From an uncultured Chromatiales bacterium (lineage in GTDB: Bacteria; Pseudomonadota; Gammaproteobacteria; Steroidobacterales; BM003): a DNA stretch of 48,257 nucleotides. The notes beneath the pieces are model-generated. The model searched no databases, was not told the DNA's origin, and was given only the letters and a program-made list of their open reading frames with translations. Position numbers and translations under genes: made by a program. The stretch is taken from contig CAKZML010000123.1 of assembly GCA_937128475.1 (NCBI GenBank), positions 1 to 48,257 of the forward strand, given 5' to 3'. Of this stretch, positions 1-37,718 are shown in pieces. Each line of letters begins with the position of its first letter. Position 1 is the first letter of the stretch.

Positions 1-411
1 CCCCTGTTTGGCATGGGTTCATTCGCAGCTATCCCGACACCCTTCGGTGATTTGGTGTGTACCGGTACTCCCGGTGGCGAAATCGTACCTAATGGCAATG
101 CAGCTGGATGTACCGACGAGGGTTACGTAACTGATTCTTCCTGGGGTTACAGAATGCGCTTGGTGTTCCAGTATGACGATGCCTTCAAGGGCGTTAACCT
201 GGTACCCAGTATTAGCTATTCCCATGATGTCAGTGGCTGGCACCCGGCTGGTATCTTCAATGAAGGTAGCAAGAGCCTGGGATTGTCACTCAAGGCCAAT
301 TACCTGCAGCGCTATACGGCTGAACTCTTCTACACGGACTTCTCCGGTGGTGATTACAACACGCGCAATGACAGGGATTTCGCCGGCTTTAGCTTCGGCG
401 TTAGCTTCTAA
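1..411 (+). CDS. DUF1302 family outer-membrane protein, C-terminal part
   Basis: Only the last 136 codons or so are in the window. The frame is open from base 1 and ends at TAA 409-411. The visible part reads as alternating beta strands (SWGYRMRLVFQYDD, VNLVPSISYSHDVSGW, SLGLSLKANYLQRYTAELF) and ends FAGFSFGVSF. A C-terminal Phe after alternating hydrophobics is the usual sorting signal of outer-membrane beta-barrels. The sequence style and the DUF1329 gene 31 bases downstream match the DUF1302 family, which is thought to form FadL-like or porin-like barrels. The pairing suggests transport of hydrophobic compounds across the outer membrane; that role is inferred. The ATG at base 13 is internal and not the true start, which lies before the window. 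Confidence 0.8.
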   Translation, partial: PLFGMGSFAAIPTPFGDLVCTGTPGGEIVPNGNAAGCTDEGYVTDSSWGYRMRLVFQYDDAFKGVNLVPSISYSHDVSGWHPAGIFNEGSKSLGLSLKANYLQRYTAELFYTDFSGGDYNTRNDRDFAGFSFGVSF

Positions 412-442
412 GCTAAGCCTACTGATTTTAGAGGATACAAAA

Positions 443-1804
443 ATGACTTTATTGAAGAAAAGTATGCTGGCTGTCGCGGCCGCGACTTATATGGTATCCG
501 TCGGCGCGTCTGCTGCAATTTCGCAGGAGCAGGCTGACCGACTGGGTGGCTCCGAGTTGACCCCGATGGGTGCAGAACGAGCCGGCAACGCTGCCGGCAC
601 GATTCCCGAGTGGAACCCGATTAAATCGGCGCCTGCCGGGTACGTTGCGGGTGGGCCTTTGCTTGATCCGTTTGCCAGTGACCAGGTGAAGTTCTCGATT
701 ACTGCGGCAAACTACGAGCAATACGCTGATAACCTATCTCCCGGTCAAATCGCACTTCTGAAGCGTTACCCGAGTACTTTCAAGATGGACGTGTATGAAT
801 CACGCCGTTCATCCGGGTATCCCCAGGCTGTGTATGACCAGGTGAAATCTGGTGCTACCAAGGCCGAACTGGCCGCCGGTGGTAATGGTTTGAAGGAACT
901 GGTGTCTGACGCACCGTTCCCGATTCCTGCCAGTGGCATCGAGGTAATATGGAATCATATTCTTCGTTACCGGGGCGGCAGCGTGAAGCGCAGCTATACC
1001 CAGATTCCGGTCCAGGCCAATGGCAATTTCAGCCCTGTCGTGTTCGATGACCAGATTACCTGGGCGAACTACATGCAGGACAAGGTTGATCCGAATCGCC
1101 TGTTCTTCTACAAGCAGGCCATCGTGGCTCCTGCGCGTCTTGAGGGCGGCGTCTTGCTGGTGCATGAGAACATCGATCAGGTTAAAGAGCCTCGTGCAGC
1201 CTGGGTATACAACGCCGGTCAGCGTCGTGTTCGCAGAGCTCCTGATGTAGCCTATGACGGTCCCGGTACCGCTTCAGATGGTCTGCGTACTGCCGATGAT
1301 CTTGATCTGTATAACGGCGCACCAGATCGTTACAACTGGAAGCTTCTTGGCAAGAAAGAGATGTACATTGGCTACAACTCTTACCGCATGCTGGGTAAAT
1401 CCCTCAAGTACAAGGATTTGTTGCAAGCCGGCCATATGAACCCTGATTACCTGCGCTATGAATTGCACAGGGTATGGGTTGTTGAGGGGACTCTTAAGGA
1501 CGGTGCCCGGCATATTTATGCCAAACGTACTTTCTATGTCGACGAGGATACCTGGCAGATTTCCATTGCAGACCTGTATGACGGGCGTGGCGAAATGTGG
1601 CGCGTGAAAGAAGCCCATAACCTTACCCATTACCAGGTTAACGTTCCGTGGTATGCGACTGAAACCAGTTACGACTTGATCTCGGGTCGTTATCTTACAA
1701 TCGGTTTGGAAAACGAAATTCCTGAGTACACCTATGTGTGGGGCTATCCGGCATCATCCACGGAGTACACCCCCGCAGCGTTGCGCAGGGCTGGAAAACG
1801 ATAA
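443..1804 (+). CDS. DUF1329 family periplasmic protein (LolA/LolB-like)
   Basis: This 453-residue protein has a Sec signal peptide (MTLLKKS, then a hydrophobic stretch ending ASA at about residue 24). The mature part has the family features: TPMGAERAGN near the N-terminus, then many Trp- and Tyr-rich beta strands such as GEMWRVKEAHN. Length matches the family's usual 450 or so. DUF1329 proteins are predicted to adopt the lipid-binding half-barrel fold of LolA/LolB and occur beside DUF1302 barrels. I infer a periplasmic shuttle for a lipid or hydrophobic substrate. The ATG at 443 is preceded by GAGGA at 431-435. An upstream in-frame extension to base 173 runs inside the DUF1302 gene and lacks a signal peptide, so it is rejected. 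A terminator follows directly. Confidence 0.85.
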   Translation: MTLLKKSMLAVAAATYMVSVGASAAISQEQADRLGGSELTPMGAERAGNAAGTIPEWNPIKSAPAGYVAGGPLLDPFASDQVKFSITAANYEQYADNLSPGQIALLKRYPSTFKMDVYESRRSSGYPQAVYDQVKSGATKAELAAGGNGLKELVSDAPFPIPASGIEVIWNHILRYRGGSVKRSYTQIPVQANGNFSPVVFDDQITWANYMQDKVDPNRLFFYKQAIVAPARLEGGVLLVHENIDQVKEPRAAWVYNAGQRRVRRAPDVAYDGPGTASDGLRTADDLDLYNGAPDRYNWKLLGKKEMYIGYNSYRMLGKSLKYKDLLQAGHMNPDYLRYELHRVWVVEGTLKDGARHIYAKRTFYVDEDTWQISIADLYDGRGEMWRVKEAHNLTHYQVNVPWYATETSYDLISGRYLTIGLENEIPEYTYVWGYPASSTEYTPAALRRAGKR

Positions 1805-1846
1805 TATAAATCGTCAGCTAGCAGTTTGACGCATTTGTAATAAGAT

Positions 1847-1884
1847 AGCGGCTCGTCGTTTTTACGGCGAGCCGCTTATTTTTT
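1847..1884 (+). terminator. Rho-independent terminator between DUF1329 and YCF48 genes
   Basis: A perfect 9-bp stem, AGCGGCTCG at 1847-1855 pairing with CGAGCCGCT at 1868-1876, is followed by TATTTTTT. It lies 43 bases after the DUF1329 stop and 35 bases before the next start. It should end or attenuate the DUF1302-DUF1329 transcript, so the YCF48 and RND genes are probably made at a lower level by read-through or from a promoter very close by. Confidence 0.85.
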
Positions 1885-1918
1885 GGGCTGCCAACTTGGC
1901 CCGTGAGTGAGGGATTAA

Positions 1919-3103
1919 ATGCAACCGAATAATAAGGCCATCACCAGAATGGCGTATGGACTGGTGACTGTTGCGTCATTGCTGGTCGCAGGAACTGTTT
2001 ACGGGCAGTCAGACGGGGAAGTGCGTACCGATTTCAGGTATCTCCCGGCCGTAAAAACTCACTGGATTGAACGTGCTTTGTTACTGGATGTCGCCAGGGC
2101 CAACGGGCGGTTGGTTGCGGTAGGTGAGCGAGGAATTATCATCCATTCAGATGATGATGGCCGTAGCTGGGTACAGGCTGATGTGCCGGTATCGGTTACC
2201 TTGACCGCTGTGAATTTTCCCAGCCCGCAGATGGGCTGGGCAGTGGGTCATGAAGGCACGATTCTGCATAGTTCAGATGGCGGTACCAGCTGGTCAGTTC
2301 AGTTTACCGGTCAGCAGGTTGCGGAGCAGGAAGTGAGCTTCGCAGAGGCCGTGATAGCCAGCAAGCAGGAAGCGATGGAAACCGCAGACGAGTTTGAACT
2401 CGAAGACCTGGGGTTTGAACTTGAGGAAGCCGAGTATGCGCTTGACGACGCCACGGTTGCGGTCGAGGCTGGCGGTACAACCAATCCCTTGCTCGATGTC
2501 TGGTTTGCTGACGAAAAATCAGGGCTTGCAGTTGGCGCTTATGGATTGATCTTCAGCACTGATGATGGTGGTGAGAACTGGAAAATTCGTTCTTCGGATC
2601 TGGATAACCTGGATAAGTATCATTACTACAGCATCGCCTCAGCTGATGGCCAGACCATCTACGTCTCTGGTGAGGCGGGGATGTTGTTTCGTTCTGATGA
2701 CGCGGGCGTTACCTGGATTCGTCTGGATTCGCCGTATGAAGGTTCATTGTTTGGCATTGTCGCCTTATCCAATGGGTCGGCAGGTCGGGTAATATCGTTC
2801 GGACTCAGGGGTAACATCTTTGTCTCTGATGACAAGGGAGAGACCTGGGAGCGAAGGACGACGGCAAGTCAAAATACACTCATGGGTGGTGTGATTTCCC
2901 CTGGTGGCAAACTGGTGTTAGTCGGTCGTTCAGGTGCGGTACTAAGCAGTGACGATGCAGGAGAGACATTCAGCGTTGTTATCAGGGAAGATCGAAGCTC
3001 GTACAGTGCATTGATTGCTAATCCTGATGAAAACCTGGTCCTGGTGGGCGAGGGCGGTATACACCGGGCGAAGCCTGACGGTTCAGCTGAGGAAGAAGAA
3101 TAA
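1919..3103 (+). CDS. Secreted YCF48/BNR-repeat beta-propeller protein
   Basis: This 394-residue protein starts with a signal peptide, residues 1-30 (probable cut VYG/QS). The rest is a string of propeller blades with the Asp-box/BNR look: IIIHSDDDGRSW (74-84), ILHSSDGGTSW (115-125), IFSTDDGGENW (211-221), LFRSDDAGVTW (256-266), IFVSDDKGETW (300-310) and VLSSDDAGETF (341-351). The family includes the photosystem II assembly factor Ycf48; outside phototrophs it is often encoded beside RND permeases. Residues of about 133-188 form an acidic, helix-prone insertion between blades 2 and 3. Start: ATG with GAGGGA just upstream. Its stop overlaps the RND start by one base (TAATG), so the two are translationally coupled. 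I infer a periplasmic partner or assembly factor for the permease. Confidence 0.85.
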   Translation: MQPNNKAITRMAYGLVTVASLLVAGTVYGQSDGEVRTDFRYLPAVKTHWIERALLLDVARANGRLVAVGERGIIIHSDDDGRSWVQADVPVSVTLTAVNFPSPQMGWAVGHEGTILHSSDGGTSWSVQFTGQQVAEQEVSFAEAVIASKQEAMETADEFELEDLGFELEEAEYALDDATVAVEAGGTTNPLLDVWFADEKSGLAVGAYGLIFSTDDGGENWKIRSSDLDNLDKYHYYSIASADGQTIYVSGEAGMLFRSDDAGVTWIRLDSPYEGSLFGIVALSNGSAGRVISFGLRGNIFVSDDKGETWERRTTASQNTLMGGVISPGGKLVLVGRSGAVLSSDDAGETFSVVIREDRSSYSALIANPDENLVLVGEGGIHRAKPDGSAEEEE

Positions 3104-5502
3104 TGAAAGGCCCAACTAAACATCACCTGACCCACCCTGTTGAGGATGTAGAACCTCTTATAGAACGCCTGATTTTTAATAATCGGGTGGTCTTGATGGT
3201 AGTGCTCGCCCTGGTAACGCTGTTTCTCGGATACCAGGCGTCTCATATCCGTCCGGATGCCAGCTTTGAGAAGATGGTGCCTACATCCCATCCCTATATT
3301 GCCAATTTCCTGAAGAACCGTGATGACCTGGCAAGTCTGGGCAACTCGGTGCGGATAGTTGTCGAGACCAAGAAGGGAGATATCTTCGACAAGGATTTCC
3401 AGGAAATCCTGCAAAAAATTAATGACGAAGTGTTTTATATCCCGGGCGTGGACCGGTCGAAACTAGAGTCTCTTTGGTCGCCAAATATTCGCTGGAGCGA
3501 AGTGACCGAAGAGGGTTTTCGTGGTGGCGCTGTCATTCCCGACGGTTATGACGGATCCCATGAGAGCCTGGAAAACTTAAGAGAAAACGTACTAAAGTCT
3601 GGTCAGATTGGACGGCTGGTCGCGAATAACTTCAAGTCGACCATTGTGCTGGCACCGCTGGTTGATCGGGATGCAGAAACCGGTGAGAAACTTGATTACA
3701 AAGAGTTGTCACAAAATCTTGAAACCCTGGTGCGGGACAAGTACGGCAGTGACGTGGTGGCTATTCACATCATTGGTTTCGCCAAAATTGTCGGCGACCT
3801 CATCCATGGTGCGAACCAGGTCGGCATATTCTTCCTGATCGCTTTCTTGACCACCATGGTCTTGTTGTACCTCTATTCTCGCTGTCTGTGGAGCACCGCG
3901 GTTCCCCTGCTTTGTTCCACTATCGGCGTGGTATGGCAGCTGGGTTTGCTGAACGTACTTGGCTTCGGTATTGATCCATATTCTATGCTGGTACCGTTTT
4001 TGGTCTTTGCAATCGGGGTGAGCCACGGTGTGCAGATGATCAACAGCATCAGGGCCAAGTCACTGTTTGGAGCTAGCCCCATGGCTTCGGCCAGGCTCAC
4101 TTTCCGTCAGCTCTACATCCCGGGTTTGGTGGCGCTGGTCAGTGATGGTATCGGCTTCTTGACCTTGATGGTGATTGAGATTCCAGTCATCCAGGAGTTG
4201 GCGCTGACCGCTAGCCTGGGTGTGGCGGTACTGATCCTGACTAACCTGATTTTGTTGCCGGTACTGATGTCCTATACCGGAGTGACGAAAAATTCTGTTC
4301 AGCACATGGAGAAGCGCAAGGACAATCCCAGCAAAGTGTGGGAATGGTTCTCTGGGTTCACCGATATGAAACGGGCTCGCGTCACGTTGGGTATCGCAGT
4401 AGGCCTGTTTGTTTTCGGATTGTATTTTGGCCAGGGCCTGAAGATTGGTGATCTTGATCCCGGCGCTCCCGAGTTGCGTGCCGATTCGCGTTACAACAGG
4501 GACAACGCGTTCCTGACGGCCAACTACTCGAACAGCACCGATGTCTTTGTGGTGATGGTGGAAACTCCCGCCCAGGCCTGTGGTAACTACGAGGCGGTGG
4601 CGGCCGTTGATCGGTTCCAGGGTGAAATGGAACCGGTAGAGGGCGTCCAGTCGGTTGTCTCCCTGGTGAACGTGGCGAAGTTGGTTAATACCGCCATGAA
4701 CGAGGGCAGCCTGAAGTGGGCAGCCCTGAGCAGGAACCAGTTCGTGTTGAACAGTTCCCTGAGTCGGGTTCCCAGTATCCTGATCAATACGGACTGCTCA
4801 ATGGTGCCGGTCCTTGTGTTCCTTGAGGATCACAAGGCCGATACGCTTTTGCGGGTGGTGGCTGCTGCGGAGGAATTTGCGGCTACCTATAACAGTCCGG
4901 ATGCGACTTTCGTCCTGGCTGCGGGTAACTCCGGTGTTGAGGCGGCGACTAATATTGTTATCGCCAAGGCCCAGTACCAGATGCTTGCCTGGGTATACGG
5001 CGTGGTCAGCCTTTTGTGCTTGATCACCTTCCGTTCGCTGCGTGCAGTGTTGTGCATTATCTTGCCCCTGGCCCTGACATCTGTCCTCGCCCAGGCACTC
5101 ATGGCCGCCATGGGGATTGGCGTAAAGGTCGCCACCTTGCCGGTTATCGCACTTGGTGTGGGTATCGGCGTGGATTACGGAATCTACATTTACAGTCGGA
5201 TGCTTGGCTTTATCAAGGACGGGCTGAAACTGACCGATGCCTATTTCAAGACTCTGCAGTCCACTGGCGTGGCCGTGGCCTTTACCGGGATGACCCTGGC
5301 CATTGGCGTAGGAACCTGGATGTTCTCACCCATCAAGTTCCAGGCAGATATGGGTCTGATGCTGACATTTATGTTCCTGTGGAACATGCTTGGTGCGTTG
5401 ATTCTGCTGCCGGCCCTTGCAAGGGTCTTGCTTGAACCAGCCAAAATTCGTCAGAAATCTGCGGATGAGTTGGAGCAACTTGTGGCGGATAGCCGAAAGT
5501 GA
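3103..5502 (+). CDS. MMPL/RND family transporter
   Basis: This 799-residue inner-membrane protein has the RND layout of two halves. Each half has one transmembrane helix (first near residues 28-45, second near 425-440), a large periplasmic loop, and a bundle of about five helices (about 235-390 and 627-780). It resembles the MMPL/HpnN-type lipid exporters rather than AcrB-type drug pumps. The second half keeps GIGVDYGIYIY, with the Asp (residue 691) expected to carry protons. The equivalent first-half motif is AIGVSHGVQMI (Ser307-His308), without the acidic residue. It is coupled to the YCF48 gene by a one-base overlap and followed by a strong terminator. Together with DUF1302 and DUF1329 it may form a trans-envelope path for a lipid-like substrate. 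Substrate and direction cannot be read from sequence. Confidence 0.85.
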   Translation: MKGPTKHHLTHPVEDVEPLIERLIFNNRVVLMVVLALVTLFLGYQASHIRPDASFEKMVPTSHPYIANFLKNRDDLASLGNSVRIVVETKKGDIFDKDFQEILQKINDEVFYIPGVDRSKLESLWSPNIRWSEVTEEGFRGGAVIPDGYDGSHESLENLRENVLKSGQIGRLVANNFKSTIVLAPLVDRDAETGEKLDYKELSQNLETLVRDKYGSDVVAIHIIGFAKIVGDLIHGANQVGIFFLIAFLTTMVLLYLYSRCLWSTAVPLLCSTIGVVWQLGLLNVLGFGIDPYSMLVPFLVFAIGVSHGVQMINSIRAKSLFGASPMASARLTFRQLYIPGLVALVSDGIGFLTLMVIEIPVIQELALTASLGVAVLILTNLILLPVLMSYTGVTKNSVQHMEKRKDNPSKVWEWFSGFTDMKRARVTLGIAVGLFVFGLYFGQGLKIGDLDPGAPELRADSRYNRDNAFLTANYSNSTDVFVVMVETPAQACGNYEAVAAVDRFQGEMEPVEGVQSVVSLVNVAKLVNTAMNEGSLKWAALSRNQFVLNSSLSRVPSILINTDCSMVPVLVFLEDHKADTLLRVVAAAEEFAATYNSPDATFVLAAGNSGVEAATNIVIAKAQYQMLAWVYGVVSLLCLITFRSLRAVLCIILPLALTSVLAQALMAAMGIGVKVATLPVIALGVGIGVDYGIYIYSRMLGFIKDGLKLTDAYFKTLQSTGVAVAFTGMTLAIGVGTWMFSPIKFQADMGLMLTFMFLWNMLGALILLPALARVLLEPAKIRQKSADELEQLVADSRK

Positions 5503-21974: not shown

Positions 21975-21978
21975 CTAG
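21975..21978. repeat. Right CTAG target-site duplication
   Basis: CTAG directly follows the right inverted-repeat end. Read on the minus strand it supplies the TAG stop of the DoxX gene (21975-21977). Confidence 0.7.
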
Positions 21979-22568
21979 TGTCTGAAGCGTCTCTCAATCC
22001 AGTAATCGATGCTGACGTAACGACCGCCGCCCATGAACAACAGGGCGAGCAACATCACCAGGTAAGTGATGGCCCATTCAATGCCATTGTTGGACAACAC
22101 AAAGTTCCCATACTGGGTCAGCCATTCGTAATTGCCATGTTGCTGGAGAATTTCTTTAGCCTCGTCCAGGCGCACCATGGCATCGGCAGCGTGAGGACTG
22201 GCGAAGGGGCTTTGCAAATCGTGCACGGCCTGCCAGCCGTTATGCCAATGCACGCCGGTAGCTGCTACCACCATGGTCACGATCAGCGGTATGCAACTCC
22301 AGCGTGTTGCCAGACCCAGCAACAGGGTCACGGCGCCGACGACTTCTGCTGAAACAGCCAGGGTCGCCATGAGCGTGGGGAAGGGCAGCCCAAGTCCCCA
22401 GTCCGAATTGCCGAACCAGGCCACCACGCTTTCAAAGCCCTGCAACTTGTTAGTGCCGGCGATCCAGAAAACCGGCGCCAGGTAAAGGCGTAGCGCCAGG
22501 GGTGCCAGCCAGTCGACGCTGCGTGTTGCATCCAGCATATCTTGCAGTCGGTTAAAGAATGAAAGCAT
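21975..22568 (-). CDS. DoxX family membrane protein
   Basis: This 197-residue protein has about four hydrophobic segments. The DoxX signature is seen in APLALRLYLAPVFWIAGTNKL and in the second helix pair AEVVGAVTLLLGLATRW. The N-terminus lacks a signal peptide. It is last in a minus-strand set with DUF2063 and DUF692. DoxX-type proteins accompany MNIO/bufferin loci, where their role (redox or quinone-linked, or helping export of the modified peptide) is unclear. The stop TAG lies in the right CTAG flank of the palindromic element, so the C-terminus (ERRFRH) appears undamaged. Confidence 0.88.
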   Translation of the reverse strand: MLSFFNRLQDMLDATRSVDWLAPLALRLYLAPVFWIAGTNKLQGFESVVAWFGNSDWGLGLPFPTLMATLAVSAEVVGAVTLLLGLATRWSCIPLIVTMVVAATGVHWHNGWQAVHDLQSPFASPHAADAMVRLDEAKEILQQHGNYEWLTQYGNFVLSNNGIEWAITYLVMLLALLFMGGGRYVSIDYWIERRFRH

Positions 22569-22643
22569 GGGTTCCTCCAGGTTGATCCCTTCTTTTGTAG
22601 TCTCGGTTTTCTATTCCGGGTTTTATATTTGGGAGTACTGTCG

Positions 22644-23408
22644 TCAGGCGTTGCGGGTACCGAGAATGACTTGGCTGTCGCGCAATCGGGTGAGAATTTT
22701 TTCACCGGCCGTAATGGTCGAGACTGAATCCTGCTCGCCAAGTTCAGCTGCTATTTTTTTCAGTATCTCTTTGCCAGTGAACTGATCTTCTTCCATCAGT
22801 TCGAGCAGCCTGGCGGTGACCGGATTGATTTCGGTGAAATTTACCTTGTCATTGTCATCACGGTTTATCAGCAGGTGCACCGGTTGCTCTTCAGGTTCGG
22901 TGGGTTGGTAGTCCACTGAGATTCTGTGCACGGCAAAGTGATATCCCAATCGCCATGCCAGCGGGGAAAGCACCGGGATTTCTTCAAGCAGATCGCCGGA
23001 TGGATTTACGCCTGAAAGATCTTCCAGGTCGTCTTCCAGGGTCATGGCCAGTTCCACCCACTCGTAATGGGCCAGTTCGAACAAGTAGGGCGGGTCATCG
23101 TTGTTGGATGCTCTTGCTTGTTGCAGGTAGGCCAGGAATTCTTCCGATACCTGGTGAAAGTAGGGGGTGTGGCAACGGTGTTCAATCATGAAATCCCGGA
23201 TCAAACCTTCCCATGCTGATTGGCCGATGACTTTGTTCAGTACCGGGAAGGTTCCGGACAACAGGCTGGAGAGATTGTTGAAAAACAACTCCCGGTAAAT
23301 CGCCATGCGACGGTCTTCTATGTCGGCCGGTGGGGGCGTGTTCTGCGGATTTCGTATGTGGGCAGCGAAATCAAATTGCAGATCCTGGAAGCGTTTGCGA
23401 TCACTCAC
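22644..23408 (-). CDS. DUF2063 (HvfC/BufC-type) MNIO partner protein
   Basis: This 254-residue protein matches the DUF2063 family: an N-terminal helical domain with [13 protein letters not shown] and [23 protein letters not shown], then [14 protein letters not shown] and [14 protein letters not shown], and a C-terminal winged-helix-like part (about 190-254, [13 protein letters not shown]). These proteins act as the peptide-recognition partner of DUF692 enzymes in copper-related RiPP loci. The start is GTG, overlapping the DUF692 stop by 8 bases, so the two proteins are probably made together and form a complex. An older database note calls this family DNA-binding; that is not supported here. 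Confidence 0.9.
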
Positions 23409-24267
23409 GAGAGGCGCTTCCTTCAGATCCGGCCCACTTTTCCTGCAGGGCGTGTATCTGGTCTACCTCTTGGAGCAGTTGCGGCAGGGGCGGGATGTTG
23501 AAGTCTCTTTCCAGCAGGGTGGGGACGATGCCGAAATGCCGGTAGGCTTGTTCCAGCAGGGCCCAGACCGGGTCGCAGACATCCGAACCATGGGTGTCCA
23601 CCCGCAGGTCTTCGGCCTCCACGTAGTGGCCTGCCACGTGGAAATAGCGGACTCGTTCCGCGGGCAGGCCCGTCAAAAATTCCATGGGGTCATAGCCGTG
23701 ATTAATGCTGTTAACGTAGATGTTGTTCACGTCCAGCAGTAAATCGCAGTCCGCCCGCAGCAGTACCTCGTTAACGAACTCAAGCTCGCTCATCTCTTTG
23801 CCGGGGGCTGCGTAGTAGGAAACATTTTCCACCGCAATGCGTTGCCCCAGCATGTCCTGTACCCGGCGGATCCGTGCGGCCACATAGTCCGCTGCTTCGG
23901 TGGTGAAGGGGATGGGCATCAAGTCGTACAGGTGACCGTCGTCGCCGCAATAGCTCAGGTGTTCCGTATACAAGCGAATGTCATGTGCCTGGATGAAGGC
24001 CTTCACTTGCTGAATGAAGTCGGTATCCAGGGGGGCGGGGCCTCCCAGGGACATGGATAAGCCGTGAACCACGAATGGGTAACGCTCGGTGAAATAGCGG
24101 AACTTCCGGCCCAGTGCACCGCCCACGCCTATCCAGTTCTCCGGCGCCACCTCCATGAAATCTACCTGGGACGGAGGATTTTCCTTGAGCACATCCATGA
24201 TCCCGCGCCGCAAACCCAGGCCTGCGCCGGTCACCGGGTATTGCCTGTTTGCGAGGGATTGGGTCAT
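23401..24267 (-). CDS. DUF692 multinuclear non-heme iron oxidase (MNIO, BufB-type)
   Basis: This 288-residue TIM-barrel enzyme keeps the iron-ligand segments of the MNIO family: [63 protein letters not shown] and LERDFNIP. Family members modify Cys residues of precursor peptides to oxazolone/thioamide or thiooxazole groups, often producing copper-binding peptides. DUF2063 and DoxX follow as in bufferin loci. A DUF2282-type precursor normally lies just upstream, but only 92 bases separate this gene from DUF1841 and no Cys-rich frame fits. The peptide must be elsewhere or lost. The ATG at 24267 agrees with the family start. Confidence 0.9.
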
Positions 24268-32710: not shown

Positions 32711-33784
32711 CTAGCTGCCGTAGAGCCCGGTGCCTTTGAGTTCCTCGAACTTCAGCTTCTTGATGGCTTTTTGGTAGGCCTCGTCACCGGTGATCTTCCG
32801 TTGCTTGTAGAGCTGCGTCAGTGCCCCGTCCATGGTCTGCATCCCGGATGAAATTCCGCTTTGGATGGTATTTTCCAGCTGGTCCAGTTTTCCTTGCCGG
32901 ATCAGGTTGGAGACCGCCGAGGTGTTCACCATGATTTCCAGGGCCGCCACGCGTCCCTTTTTGTCGGCAGTGGGTATGAGCTGCTGTGAGATGACCGCGC
33001 GCAGCGAGGTGGCCAGCATGGTCCGAATCGGGCCTTGCTTGTCGCTGGGGAAGGCGTTCACGATACGGTCCACAGTGGGTGCGGCGCCGTTGGTGTGCAA
33101 GGTGCCCATGACCAGGATGCCCATCTCGGCCGCGGTAACGGCAATTGACATGGTCTCCAGGTCGCGTAGCTCGCCCACCAGGATGACATCAGGATCCTCA
33201 CGCAATGCGGAATGCAGGGCAGCGGCGAATGAGCTTGTATGCACGCCCACTTCACGTTGGCTGATCAGGCAGCTGCGACGTGGGTGTATGAATTCGATAG
33301 GGTCCTCAATGGTGATGATATGCCCCTTCATCCGACGATTAATCGCATCAACCATTGCAGCCAGGGTGGTGGATTTACCAGAGCCGGTTTTTCCGGTAAC
33401 CAGTATCAAGCCGTTCTTGTGCTTGCACAGGCTGTAAATCACGCTGGGCATGTTGAGTTCTTGAAGGGTCTTGGCTGCAGAGGGGATCGCCCTGAATATT
33501 CCGCCCAGACCATTCAGATGACGCATTACGTTCACCCTGAATCGTCCAATGCCCTCGATTTCATGGGCAAAATCGGCGCCATCGTGGTCGTCCAGTGCCT
33601 TGCGCGCAGTGGCCGACAGGATTTCTTCCAGCATTTCTTTCGCCATCGCTGGCTGAAGCACGTCATTTTCCAGAGGTTTCAGATCGCCATTAACCCGAAT
33701 CCGGGGTGGATCGCCCGCAAGGAAGTGCAAATCTGAACCGCCGTTCTCGACCAGGCGCTTGAGGTATGAGTCTATTGCTGCCAC
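32711..33784 (-). CDS. PilT-family retraction ATPase, paralog 1
   Basis: This 357-residue protein has an N-terminal PAS-like domain (SDLHFLAGDPPRIRVNG) and a RecA-like ATPase domain with Walker A GKTGSGKST (131-139), the Asp box IITIEDPIEF, Walker B DVILVGELRD and the His box GTLHTNGA. SNLIRQGKLDQ near the C-terminus is close to the AIRNLIRE motif needed for PilT retraction. It is expected to form a hexamer that depolymerises a pilus. The start is GTG, set by GGAGAG 6 bases upstream. It is the last gene of an apparent kinase-pilT-pilT operon. It is clearly related to PilT and PilU but not obviously the canonical copy, and no pilin genes are in the window. Confidence 0.88.
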   Translation of the reverse strand: MAAIDSYLKRLVENGGSDLHFLAGDPPRIRVNGDLKPLENDVLQPAMAKEMLEEILSATARKALDDHDGADFAHEIEGIGRFRVNVMRHLNGLGGIFRAIPSAAKTLQELNMPSVIYSLCKHKNGLILVTGKTGSGKSTTLAAMVDAINRRMKGHIITIEDPIEFIHPRRSCLISQREVGVHTSSFAAALHSALREDPDVILVGELRDLETMSIAVTAAEMGILVMGTLHTNGAAPTVDRIVNAFPSDKQGPIRTMLATSLRAVISQQLIPTADKKGRVAALEIMVNTSAVSNLIRQGKLDQLENTIQSGISSGMQTMDGALTQLYKQRKITGDEAYQKAIKKLKFEELKGTGLYGS

Positions 33785-33804
33785 GTGTTCTCTCCTATGC
33801 CCGC

Positions 33805-34899
33805 TCAGGAATCAGCCAGGTCGATCTTGGGAAGAATTGATGTGTCAGTAACAAAGCGCTGGAACTGCTTTTTGTCCACTGCATAATTGTAGGCATCATC
33901 CGGGTCGATCTCCTTGGCCTGGATTGCCAGCAGCAAGGCCTGATCCAGTAACTGCATTCCTTTATCACGGCCGGTCTGCAATTGAGCAGGAATCTGGTGG
34001 GTTTGATCAGTCATGATTAGCTTGGCGATGGCCTTGGTCATCACCAGGGATTCAACGATAGCTTTGCGACCACGGCCGTCCGGAGTGCGAATCAGGAACT
34101 GTGACAGCACCGCAATCAGGCTTTGTGACAGGAAGCTCTTGGTTTGCTCTCTCTCATCGGAGGGCAAGGCGTCCACGACCCTGTCCAGGGTTTTAACCGC
34201 ACTGGTGGTATGCAGCGTTCCCAGGACCAGGTGTCCGGTTTCCGCTGCGGTCATGGCCATCGAAATGGTTTCTTCGTCACGCAGTTCGCCTACCAGGATA
34301 ACGTCGGGGTCCTCACGCATGGCGGCGCGCACGCCTTCTGCGAAGCTGGGTACATGAGTACCAACTTCGCGCTGGATTACCTGGGATTTCTTGCTTCGAT
34401 GCACAAATTCGATGGGGTCTTCGAGACTGATGATATTGACCGCGCGATTGGTGTTGATGAAATCAATCATCGAGGCCAGGGTTGTGGATTTGCCGGTACC
34501 GGTGGAGCCGGTGACCAGCACCATGCCCTGATGGTAGTCACATAATTTCGGCACAATCTCGGGCAGTCCAAGCTTTTCCAGAAGAGGGATGTCGCCAGGA
34601 ATGTTTCGGAAGGTGGCTCCCAGGCCAGTTTCCTTGCGGTAGATGTTTGCCCTGAAACGGCCGCCGTCTTCGGAGACGTAGGAGAAATCCAGGTCCTGTC
34701 CGCCGTCGAACCATTCCTTCTGCTTGGGCGTCAGGACTTCGTAGATATAGGTTTCCAGTTCCGAATCACTCAAGTCGCGGAACTTGATTGGCATGAGTTC
34801 GCCGAACATTCGAAGCATTGGGGGAATGCCCACGGCCAGATGAACATCTGAACAGCCCTGGGCCATGCCGAGTTTGAGGAATGAGTCTAGTCTAGCCAT
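33805..34899 (-). CDS. PilT-family retraction ATPase, paralog 2
   Basis: This 364-residue protein has the same layout as its neighbour: SDVHLAVGIPPMLRMFGE at the N-terminus, Walker A GSTGTGKST (131-139), IISLEDPIEF, DVILVGELRDEET and GTLHTTSA. The C-terminal segment AIAKLIMTDQTHQI takes the place of AIRNLIRE, so this copy is the more divergent there, and it has a longer C-terminal tail ending KIDLADS. Two unequal PilT-type motors made together could form mixed or cooperating hexamers, as PilT and PilU do (inference). It lies 20 bases before paralog 1 and 47 after the kinase gene. Confidence 0.88.
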   Translation of the reverse strand: MARLDSFLKLGMAQGCSDVHLAVGIPPMLRMFGELMPIKFRDLSDSELETYIYEVLTPKQKEWFDGGQDLDFSYVSEDGGRFRANIYRKETGLGATFRNIPGDIPLLEKLGLPEIVPKLCDYHQGMVLVTGSTGTGKSTTLASMIDFINTNRAVNIISLEDPIEFVHRSKKSQVIQREVGTHVPSFAEGVRAAMREDPDVILVGELRDEETISMAMTAAETGHLVLGTLHTTSAVKTLDRVVDALPSDEREQTKSFLSQSLIAVLSQFLIRTPDGRGRKAIVESLVMTKAIAKLIMTDQTHQIPAQLQTGRDKGMQLLDQALLLAIQAKEIDPDDAYNYAVDKKQFQRFVTDTSILPKIDLADS

Positions 34900-34946
34900 T
34901 TGTCACCCTGTGCCGTACCTGGCACCGGAGTGATAACCAGGAACGG

Positions 34947-37325
34947 CTATTTAAATTTTTCTACCGCCTTCTTGAACTCGTCCATGGAGGCGTATCTCTT
35001 GCTCCGATCTACCTGCATGGCTTTTGAAACTGCAGCATCCAGTTCTTCTGGAATTTCAGCGTTCAACTGCCTTACCGTCTGGGCCTTGCCCTGGACATGC
35101 TGGTACATGACCGACATGTGGTCGCCCTTGGTATACGGAGGTATTCCCGTAAGCATTTCGTACAATATCACGCCAACACTGTAAATGTCGGCCTTCTCAT
35201 CGACCTTTTTACCAAGGATTTGTTCCGGTGCCATGTACTTTGGCGAGCCAATGACATAACCGGTTTTGGTGAGCTGGGTGTCTCCGCTTGAGCGTGCCGC
35301 GGCAACACCAAAATCCACGATCTTCAGCAAGCCTTCATCATTAATCAAAATGTTTGCGGGCTTCAAGTCGCGATGCACGATGCCCGCCTGGTGAGCCACC
35401 GTCATTCCGGTGGCGATATCCATGGCGAAGCCCACGGCCTTGCCGATTGGCAACGGCTTTCCGTCAGTTTCCTGGCCCAGGGTGTGGGAGGGGAAGTATT
35501 CCATGGAGATGGCGTAATGGCCGCCCAGGTGCAAGAAGTCATAGATTCGAATGACGTTCTTGTGAGTGATCTTTCGTGAATAACGCAATTCGTGCACGAA
35601 GCGCTGCAGCATTTCCTCGTCTGAAGAAACGTTGGGGTTCAAGAACTTCAGGATAAGCTGTTCGTCCACCACTGTATCTTCCATCAGCAACACGGTGCCG
35701 AAAGCGCCCTTGCCGATCTTCTGCAGATACTTGTAACGCCCTTCGATTATATCGCCGGGGTTGAGGGTGGAAATATCCAGGCTGGGTGCTTTCTGCCTCT
35801 CCATCACTTCCTGGATATCCTTGCTGTCCATCAGCAAGGTCTTGGCCGGTTCCACGAATTTTTCCGCGTCTTCCCTGGCTGCAATAGCGGTGGGCGAGAA
35901 GCGGTCATCCAGGTTCGAAATGGCCGAGGACACAGCCTTGTTTACCGAGCTGTCCTGTCCGGTGCTCAAACTGGCCAGGTTTGCCCTGATGGTATCTGCC
36001 TGGGATTCCTCTGACAGGGACGAGAGGGCCTTGACCGCCTCGATTTTGATTTCTCTTTCCGGGCTGGCCAGTAATTTCATCAGCTCATCGACGGCGCCGT
36101 GATCTCCCAACTTGGTCAGTGCCCTGATTCCCGCGGGAATTGAGCGCGGATCTCCGGTAAGCATTTTTCTCAGTGCCGGAATCGCCTTTTTGTTGCCAAT
36201 TTCAGCCAAGGCATCCGCGGAGCGCTCTTTCACCCACCAGTCCTTGTCCTCAGTGGCGCTGATCAAGTGATTAACAGCCCTTTCATCTTTGGTGGAGTTG
36301 AGGATTTCCACGGCCGAGCGCCGGATTTCCTCATCCTCGTCCTGGACCAGGACCAGTACAGCTTCCACGACCTTTTGTCCGCCAATCTTGGCCAGTGCGT
36401 CTCCGGCCCGGGAGCGAACCCACCAGTCCTCGTCCTTGATAGCGTCCAGCAGGTACTTGATGGAATCCACGTCGCCAAGTTCGTTGAGAACCTCGACCGC
36501 TGCGCGTCTCGCGTACTCCGATTCGTCCTTCAGAACTTCAACCAGGTACTTGACTGTATCCGGGTGGCGCTGGGCGATGATTACGTCTACGGCCTTGTCC
36601 TGTACGTCCAGTTCCGGGTCCTGCAACAGGACGCAAAGTGTCTGGATATTGACGTTGCCGGAGATTTTTTCCAACGCGCTCAGGGCGGCGTGCTTTACCA
36701 GTTTGTTGCGATTGCCCAGTTGCTTCTCCAGGGCCCGGTGCACTGGAGGAATGTTGAATTTGGCCAGGATGGACATCAGGTGCACTCGCACCAGGGTATC
36801 TTTGCCTTCAAGCCGGTTTATCAACTCGGGGACCATGGCCTCATCAGCCATTTCCCCGATGATCTTGAACAGTGCCGCTTTATCCTGTGGTTCAAGTTCA
36901 TAAACAATCGTGAGCAATTCCCGCATATTCAGCCGGCTTTTATGGGCTGACAGAATTGCAATGACGCCGCCCTTGTTCATCTCAGGGGCAGCGAGCAGAG
37001 GCAGCAACTTGTTGGGGTCATAGCGCTTGTTACTGCTCATGGCCCAGGCGAGGCCAGAAATAATGCGCTGATTTGAGCTTTTCAGTCCCTCTACGAACAG
37101 GTTCAAGGTCTTGGTGTCCAGCACCTTGGATAGAACCTCGACAATCAGTACGGTTTCTTTCTTGTTGCTGTGCTCCAGAGCGGCGATCAGCTTGGGCACC
37201 GACGCGCCACCGATCTTGGCCAAGGCCTCAACAGCCTTTTCGCTCTGCGCAGAATCCTTGTCCGCGCTTTCGATCAGCTGGGCAATGAGCTTGTCAGCTC
37301 TTAATGATCCAAACATTTTCAACAT
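34947..37325 (-). CDS. HEAT-repeat/Ser-Thr protein kinase fusion
   Basis: This 792-residue soluble protein has no membrane segment. Residues of about 1-470 are tandem HEAT/PBS-lyase-type helical repeats; two near-identical units contain DEDWWVRSRAGDALAKIG and DKDWWVKERSADALAEIG. A linker follows (about 470-525), then a eukaryote-type kinase: Gly loop GKGAFGTV (538-545), LILKF with the ATP Lys, HRDLKPAN (651-658), DFG (671-673), YMAPEQ and DIYSVGVILYEML. All catalytic residues are present, so it should be active. The HEAT part probably binds a partner protein. It is followed by two PilT-type genes, which suggests it regulates or recruits the motor. Start: ATG 37325; 37316 is an alternative, and neither has a strong ribosome-binding site. 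Confidence 0.9.
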   Translation of the reverse strand: MLKMFGSLRADKLIAQLIESADKDSAQSEKAVEALAKIGGASVPKLIAALEHSNKKETVLIVEVLSKVLDTKTLNLFVEGLKSSNQRIISGLAWAMSSNKRYDPNKLLPLLAAPEMNKGGVIAILSAHKSRLNMRELLTIVYELEPQDKAALFKIIGEMADEAMVPELINRLEGKDTLVRVHLMSILAKFNIPPVHRALEKQLGNRNKLVKHAALSALEKISGNVNIQTLCVLLQDPELDVQDKAVDVIIAQRHPDTVKYLVEVLKDESEYARRAAVEVLNELGDVDSIKYLLDAIKDEDWWVRSRAGDALAKIGGQKVVEAVLVLVQDEDEEIRRSAVEILNSTKDERAVNHLISATEDKDWWVKERSADALAEIGNKKAIPALRKMLTGDPRSIPAGIRALTKLGDHGAVDELMKLLASPEREIKIEAVKALSSLSEESQADTIRANLASLSTGQDSSVNKAVSSAISNLDDRFSPTAIAAREDAEKFVEPAKTLLMDSKDIQEVMERQKAPSLDISTLNPGDIIEGRYKYLQKIGKGAFGTVLLMEDTVVDEQLILKFLNPNVSSDEEMLQRFVHELRYSRKITHKNVIRIYDFLHLGGHYAISMEYFPSHTLGQETDGKPLPIGKAVGFAMDIATGMTVAHQAGIVHRDLKPANILINDEGLLKIVDFGVAAARSSGDTQLTKTGYVIGSPKYMAPEQILGKKVDEKADIYSVGVILYEMLTGIPPYTKGDHMSVMYQHVQGKAQTVRQLNAEIPEELDAAVSKAMQVDRSKRYASMDEFKKAVEKFK

Positions 37326-37718
37326 AAGTAGTCGCGTGACCCCGGGGATTCCCAACAGCTAAAGTCTCCGACGTGATCGCCGGGTTCACTAAAAATGTCT
37401 GGACGTGGTTTACACATCACACAGTATGTCCTTAACAAGCTTCATCTGATTGATTCTCTGACCCGGGACGTCCCTGTTTCACCGGGTGGTATGCATGGCT
37501 TGGGCACTTCACCCTCCCGGACATACCTCGCCGAATTATGCCATACCCACCAAACTCTTATAAGTCGAACGAGTCTGAATTTGGTGACCAAGTTTACCCT
37601 TCCGTGGGGTTGGGGCAAGGGAGCTGGTGGATTGAATAGTGAGGATTTCTCTGTTTCGGGTACAATCTTGTGCTTTCGGGCATTCTGACTTGGCGCAGTA
37701 AGGATTGATGGTATCTCT
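37326..37718. other. 393-base divergent intergenic region between kinase and mrp
   Basis: It should hold promoters for both the minus-strand kinase/pilT operon and the plus-strand mrp-dcd pair. A 10-bp perfect palindrome GGGACGTCCC lies at 37465-37474. A TACAAT at 37661-37666 might be a -10 box for mrp, but I found no matching -35. A 97-codon plus-strand frame (37395-37688) has no recognisable similarity, so I do not call it a gene. Confidence 0.5.

Follow-up and report, generated by a model that had tools for sequence, protein, structure and literature searches.

Why would a HEAT-repeat protein kinase be encoded with two PilT-type motors? This question is raised by a 48,257-nucleotide stretch of DNA from an uncultured Chromatiales bacterium (Gammaproteobacteria; Steroidobacterales; BM003). 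The window, meaning this whole stretch, is the entire contig C123 (CAKZML010000123.1) of assembly G000 (GCA_937128475.1; 3.06 Mb, 307 contigs, 96% complete). The original prediction, made from the letters of the window, was that a cytosolic Ser/Thr kinase, encoded next to two PilT-family ATPases, docks through its HEAT arm on the motor and controls retraction by phosphorylation. Our analysis gives roughly even backing to a reading of this kind, in which the three genes (the trio: the kinase gene, pilTa and pilTb) would form a Ser/Thr phosphorylation switch dedicated to an accessory type IV pilus retraction-motor pair. The features concerned are as follows.

34947..37325, minus strand: HEAT-repeat Ser/Thr protein kinase, 792 amino acids, without an obvious membrane segment (open reading frame (ORF), Pfam)
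35856..37325, minus strand: N-terminal HEAT array of the kinase, residues 1-490 (PF13646; AlphaFold helices 2-490)
34986..35735, minus strand: C-terminal kinase domain, residues 531-780 (PF00069, alignment, PknB/Stk1 fold)
33805..34899, minus strand: PilTa, PilT/PilU-family ATPase, 364 amino acids (TIGR01420, tree, motifs)
33808..33864, minus strand: C-terminal tail of PilTa, residues 346-364, FQRFVTDTSILPKIDLADS, candidate phosphosite or docking motif
32711..33784, minus strand: PilTb, second PilT/PilU-family ATPase, 357 amino acids (TIGR01420, tree)

The ORFs confirmed the predicted row on the minus strand, with the kinase gene followed after 47 bases by pilTa and after a further 20 bases by pilTb. 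The orthologs agree better with a kinase start at 37325 (ATG) than with the longer form starting at 37355 (TTG). Pilin, PilB, PilC and secretin genes, said to be missing nearby, were indeed not found in a Pfam scan of 20 further window ORFs, a scan that left out some small ORFs.

Pfam recognises five HEAT_2 stretches in the kinase (PF13646, E = 7e-52) and, at E = 2e-50, a Pkinase domain (PF00069) that has the catalytic Lys, Glu, HRD, Asn and DFG of a Hanks-type Ser/Thr kinase. Lys560, Glu579, HRD651-653, Asn658 and Asp671 are invariant in an alignment of 37 kinase orthologs, as is T686 of the activation loop, and in the HEAT array the motif D-x-D-W-W-V occurs twice (residues 298-303 and 360-365), invariant both times. 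The fusion of a complete set of catalytic motifs to a HEAT array was thus borne out. Identity to the orthologs is 46-92% inside the window's order and 40-48% outside it. In an AlphaFold model computed with the 37-row alignment (mean predicted local distance difference test (pLDDT) 85, predicted template modelling score 0.48), residues 1-490 are modelled as a HEAT solenoid; near 487-500 a disordered linker leads to the kinase domain (531-792), the activation loop of which is of low confidence. The nearest solved folds, found with Foldseek and VIA-align, are mycobacterial PknB/PknA and staphylococcal Stk1 (Z about 31-34), a comparison that concerns the kinase domain. The protein falls outside the PknB/Stk1 PASTA class (NF033483), scoring 273 bits against 450 through its kinase domain only, with HEAT repeats in place of PASTA. 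A diverged HEAT-repeat kinase of about 29% identity (L089 7168-9582, family f169) adjoins clpB and has no PilT beside it; HEAT kinases exist in settings other than a PilT pair.

Both ATPases score above the curated cut-off of TIGR01420 (319 bits, full model), PilTa with 412 and PilTb with 444 bits, and the PilTa profile matches the twitching motility ATPase of PDB 3jvu at 1e-121. They share about 43% identity and retain Walker A and B. In a maximum-likelihood tree of 74 sequences, PilTa (support 100/100) and PilTb (100/99) each form a clade of their own, separate from canonical PilT, from PilU and from the clade of a third gene described below; support for a sister relation between the two is only moderate (96/75). 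Neither groups with the pilT-pilU locus as a canonical PilT or PilU ortholog would. The claim of two different PilT-family ATPases therefore stood, and each has a mark of its own. All 36 PilTa orthologs keep Walker A/B and both His-box histidines, and 34 of them carry a C-terminal tail with the motif F-x-[RK]-[FY]-V-[TS]-[DN]-x-x-[LI], found in 0/36 PilTb sequences and 0/38 of a comparison set of canonical PilT, PilU and third-clade proteins (which includes one PilTb). Column 351 of PilTa (T351 in the window) is Ser or Thr in 35/36 orthologs. In PilTb the first His-box histidine is replaced (GHLV to GILV; Ile in 34/36, Val in 1/36), whereas PilTa has His in 36/36.

We then asked how widely the kinase and the motors travel together, using a class sample of 369 genomes. 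Kinases were called at a minimum of 39% identity, with the diverged f169 forms (26-30%) excluded, and PilTa at a minimum of 59%, where the next best matches (PilTb or canonical PilT) reach at most 48%. Taxonomic statements here derive from kinship labels, and "gammaproteobacteria-like" is drawn from gene content. The kinase occurred in 48 genomes and PilTa in 46; both were present in 46, the kinase only in two, PilTa only in none, and neither in 321. The two kinase-only genomes are at assembly breaks, one a scaffold gap and the other a contig end. This co-occurrence far exceeds chance: Fisher's test gave 1e-56, a value that takes no account of shared ancestry. The joint variation in presence and absence of kinase and PilTa within families f5, f16, f59, f121, f139 and f142 is more telling than this P value. 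Inside the window's order, genomes without the kinase also lack PilTa and vice versa, except for one contig-truncated case.

The kinase could be a syntenic bystander whose function is independent. Within the window's order, synteny extends over all of rnf-metG-pilTb-pilTa-kinase/mrp-dcd-purNM, and adjacency inside the order is therefore weak evidence. The flanking genes metG, rnf, mrp, dcd and purMN are common only within that order and gone outside it. Among 43 kinase genomes outside the order (tallied partly by hand from tables), 37 have the row kinase-pilTa-pilTb, two have an unlinked kinase and four are undecidable at contig ends or gaps; the row is thus kept on one strand, between different flanks, in 37/39 decidable genomes. 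Gaps within the trio have medians of 7 and 15.5 bases, with some overlaps. The two genomes with an unlinked kinase (G220, G421) retain all three genes, with pilTa and pilTb still an adjacent pair elsewhere. Adjacency that persists where all flanks differ, co-occurrence that persists where adjacency is lost, and joint presence or absence within the families named above argue against an independent function, which we regard as very improbable. Judging from their co-inheritance, the kinase, PilTa and PilTb very probably act together. The conserved neighbourhood that the original prediction proposed to look for was found, reaching far beyond local synteny. A phylum-wide sample of 398 genomes, those listed being mainly of the same class, held no ortholog besides the window, and a contig scan with the kinase alignment gave at least two true orthologs (L100 and L101, metagenome bins labelled "Proteobacteria bacterium") among the 80 loci listed, a list filled up by the common HRDLKP motif.

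What the genes may do together is suggested by their neighbours. In bacterial Ser/Thr signalling, a kinase, a PP2C phosphatase and an FHA domain act as writer, eraser and phosphothreonine reader. Clustering of ORFs around 24 loci outside the window's order often placed, downstream of pilTb, either a protein with an FHA domain (PF00498, 2e-20) or a cyclase-FHA protein, and at several loci a PP2C phosphatase (PF13672, 5e-13) divergently upstream; FHA and PP2C counts of this kind are lower bounds, since they vary with the flank retrieved and with similarity to a few seeds at E 1e-5. Since a phosphatase and an FHA phospho-reader adjoin the module in other lineages, gene neighbourhood favours control by phosphorylation.

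Directly upstream of the kinase gene, and nearly always adjoining it, lies a family of about 155 amino acids that is present in 35/42 kinase genomes and in 0/38 genomes without the kinase. Its consensus is LWVHPEGRV..RFYNK..MMDGS..RLYDYLN..LVNKSYI. Searches gave no Pfam match above cut-off (DUF6812 fell below threshold), no NCBIfam model and chance matches only among PDB sequences. A structural model (pLDDT 87) weakly resembles two Sm/Hfq-like barrels (Z 3-4).

The main rival explanation reverses the flow of the signal. PilTa and PilTb would then be a sensor of load or engagement, and the bound HEAT kinase would report retraction through FHA and cyclase-FHA proteins as a surface-sensing output. 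An adenylate/guanylate cyclase with an FHA domain stands beside the trio in G113, G183, G252, G101 and G265, and G000 encodes an unlinked cyclase-FHA protein (contig C159, L243 5921-6883) 38% identical to those beside the trio in other orders. Passages of a 2024 pilus-motor review also discuss pilus retraction as a surface signal to CyaB and cyclic AMP in Pseudomonas aeruginosa (PMC11656802). However, the cyclase occurs only at a minority of loci, and two ATPases that are catalytically intact by their motifs exceed what a sensor would need. We consider reversed flow somewhat unlikely, and it may hold together with a phosphorylation switch on the motors.

Three further pilT/pilU-type genes on contig C146 of G000 (L075 11754-15070) mean that the trio does not hold the genome's only such genes. 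They comprise a canonical pilT-pilU pair and a third tandem PilT/PilU-family gene, which groups apart from both PilT and PilU in the tree, and they adjoin yggS/proC-type and chemosensory genes (names read from the sequence, not searched). PilB was not found in the G000 assembly; because G001, from the same genus, and most relatives do have it, its absence is probably an assembly gap.

Alternatively, PilTa and PilTb might serve not the type IVa pilus but another machine, such as a minor pilus or the pseudopilus of a type II secretion system. The window's genome, where PilB was not found, has a type II secretion cluster on contig C257, and the single-contig genome G101 (C1, L235) carries the trio 14 kb from such a cluster, together with PilT/PilU and a third PilT-like gene, without PilB. 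G241, a congener of G101, has PilB and no trio. Against another machine, PilB occurs in most kinase genomes as well as in G001, and the single-contig genome G413, which has the trio, shows no GspE-like match besides PilB at comparable score. On this evidence another machine is distinctly unlikely.

Under the phosphorylation switch that we prefer, PilTa and PilTb would be a second motor pair, comparable to PilT/PilU and non-orthologous to it, and would act on the ordinary type IVa pilus, whose machine other loci in the genome encode. The cytosolic kinase would be scaffolded through its HEAT arm, with the PilTa hexamer as the most likely platform; docking on a motor hexamer is plausible, at somewhat less than even confidence. 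It would phosphorylate a motor, the simplest link and one to which we lean slightly. The best candidate site would be Thr351 in the conserved PilTa tail, a guess from conservation that we hold loosely. The switch would set whether the PilTa/PilTb pair engages or assists retraction. In most lineages outside the order, the PP2C phosphatase, the FHA reader and the small conserved upstream protein, or some of these, would belong to the same circuit. A doubtful extension is that phosphorylation by the docked kinase selects between the motor sets PilT/PilU and PilTa/PilTb, the phosphatase, the FHA reader and the cyclase completing a link that runs in both directions between retraction and cell signalling.

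Several points weigh against this reading. Kinase activity, phosphosite and kinase-motor complex are predictions from genes. Family f14 shows an eroded PilTa tail, and in one ortholog (L088) the residue at the Thr351 column is Asn. The combination in G101 of the trio and PilT/PilU without PilB sits uneasily with an accessory pair on a type IVa pilus, and the statistical association carries the ancestry caveat given above. None of the 59 relatives of the window that were searched has the upstream family, and the window's own locus lacks the FHA, PP2C and upstream genes; the phosphatase and the reader would therefore be encoded elsewhere here. An 843-amino-acid Ser/Thr kinase, a PP2C phosphatase and an FHA protein do lie in a row on contig C207 of G000 (L242 5213-9303), unlinked to the trio, the N-terminus of this kinase appearing CHASE2-like by eye. 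This cluster and the cyclase-FHA protein of C159 are relatives of the module's partners, and a role for them in the window's module may be conjectured.

Comparison with known systems places the module among familiar parts. PilT and PilU of type IVa pili (TIGR01420; PDB 3jvu/3jvv) share its family, Walker motifs and arrangement of two paralogs side by side, whereas PilTa and PilTb differ in branching apart, as two clades, from canonical PilT, PilU and the third clade, all encoded in the same genome, and in the conserved PilTa tail, the changed PilTb His box and the linkage to a kinase. The closest logic, along with an archaellum network, is that of the threonine phosphorylation pathway of the type VI secretion system (T6SS), in which the kinase PpkA, the phosphatase PppA and Fha are clustered with the machine that they control (PMC5995506). 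Here the machine would be a retraction ATPase pair, and the kinase has HEAT repeats. FHA proteins of the module in other genomes score 33 to 42 bits with the TagH model TIGR03354, far below its cut-off of 120, and at those loci where ORFs were read by eye no T6SS genes stood out, no T6SS model having been searched. The Sulfolobus archaellum network, with kinases ArnC/ArnD and phosphatase PP2A (PMC5300886), likewise brings Ser/Thr phosphorylation to bear on motility by a type-IV-pilus-like machine; it differs in being archaeal and in that ArnC/ArnD phosphorylate the repressor ArnB rather than a PilT motor whose gene adjoins that of the kinase. In P. aeruginosa, deletion of Stk1 removes twitching and pilus protein levels are lowered (PMC8560001), but PilT goes unmentioned in the main text of that paper.

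The cyanobacterial PilB-Hfq-EbsA complex, in which a conserved C-terminal extension of PilB binds Hfq (PMC12288463), offers a further likeness, namely a conserved motor extension and, if the model of the upstream protein holds, a weakly Sm/Hfq-like candidate; it differs in that the motor is PilB and no kinase is named, and the Hfq resemblance is weak (Z 3-4). By this analogy the upstream protein was considered as a partner of the PilTa tail and disfavoured, the tail persisting in the window's order without that protein. The 2024 review names motor competition, cyclic nucleotides, PilZ/FimX and inhibitory peptides as controls of pilus motors, and the passages located in it on kinases deal with two-component systems only (PMC11656802). 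No description of a HEAT kinase with a PilT pair was found in the open-access papers searched, in keeping with the original prediction's remark that no characterised system of this composition was known. The module therefore joins known domains and a known circuit type on a machine where, in those papers, the circuit is so far undescribed.

Elsewhere in the window, positions 21975-24267 hold a DoxX protein, a DUF2063/NGO1945-type protein and an MbnB/TglH/ChrH-type enzyme that modifies precursors of ribosomally synthesized and post-translationally modified peptides, side by side; the three may form a small cluster for peptide modification. Positions 173-5502 hold a row of a DUF1329 protein, a YCF48/BNR-repeat protein and an MMPL transporter.

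When cells retract their pili, and with which motor, is largely an open question. To our knowledge, no pilus retraction ATPase has earlier been described as switched directly by covalent modification, and kinase-gated motor exchange, if true, would be the first such case. A widespread module of one kinase and one motor pair makes phosphorylation control of retraction testable. It would also assign a function to many genes likely annotated merely as "PilT" or "protein kinase", and give context to the conserved, nameless upstream family. Together, these results suggest that, in many gammaproteobacteria-like bacteria, motors used to crawl over surfaces and to sense them are switched by phosphorylation.

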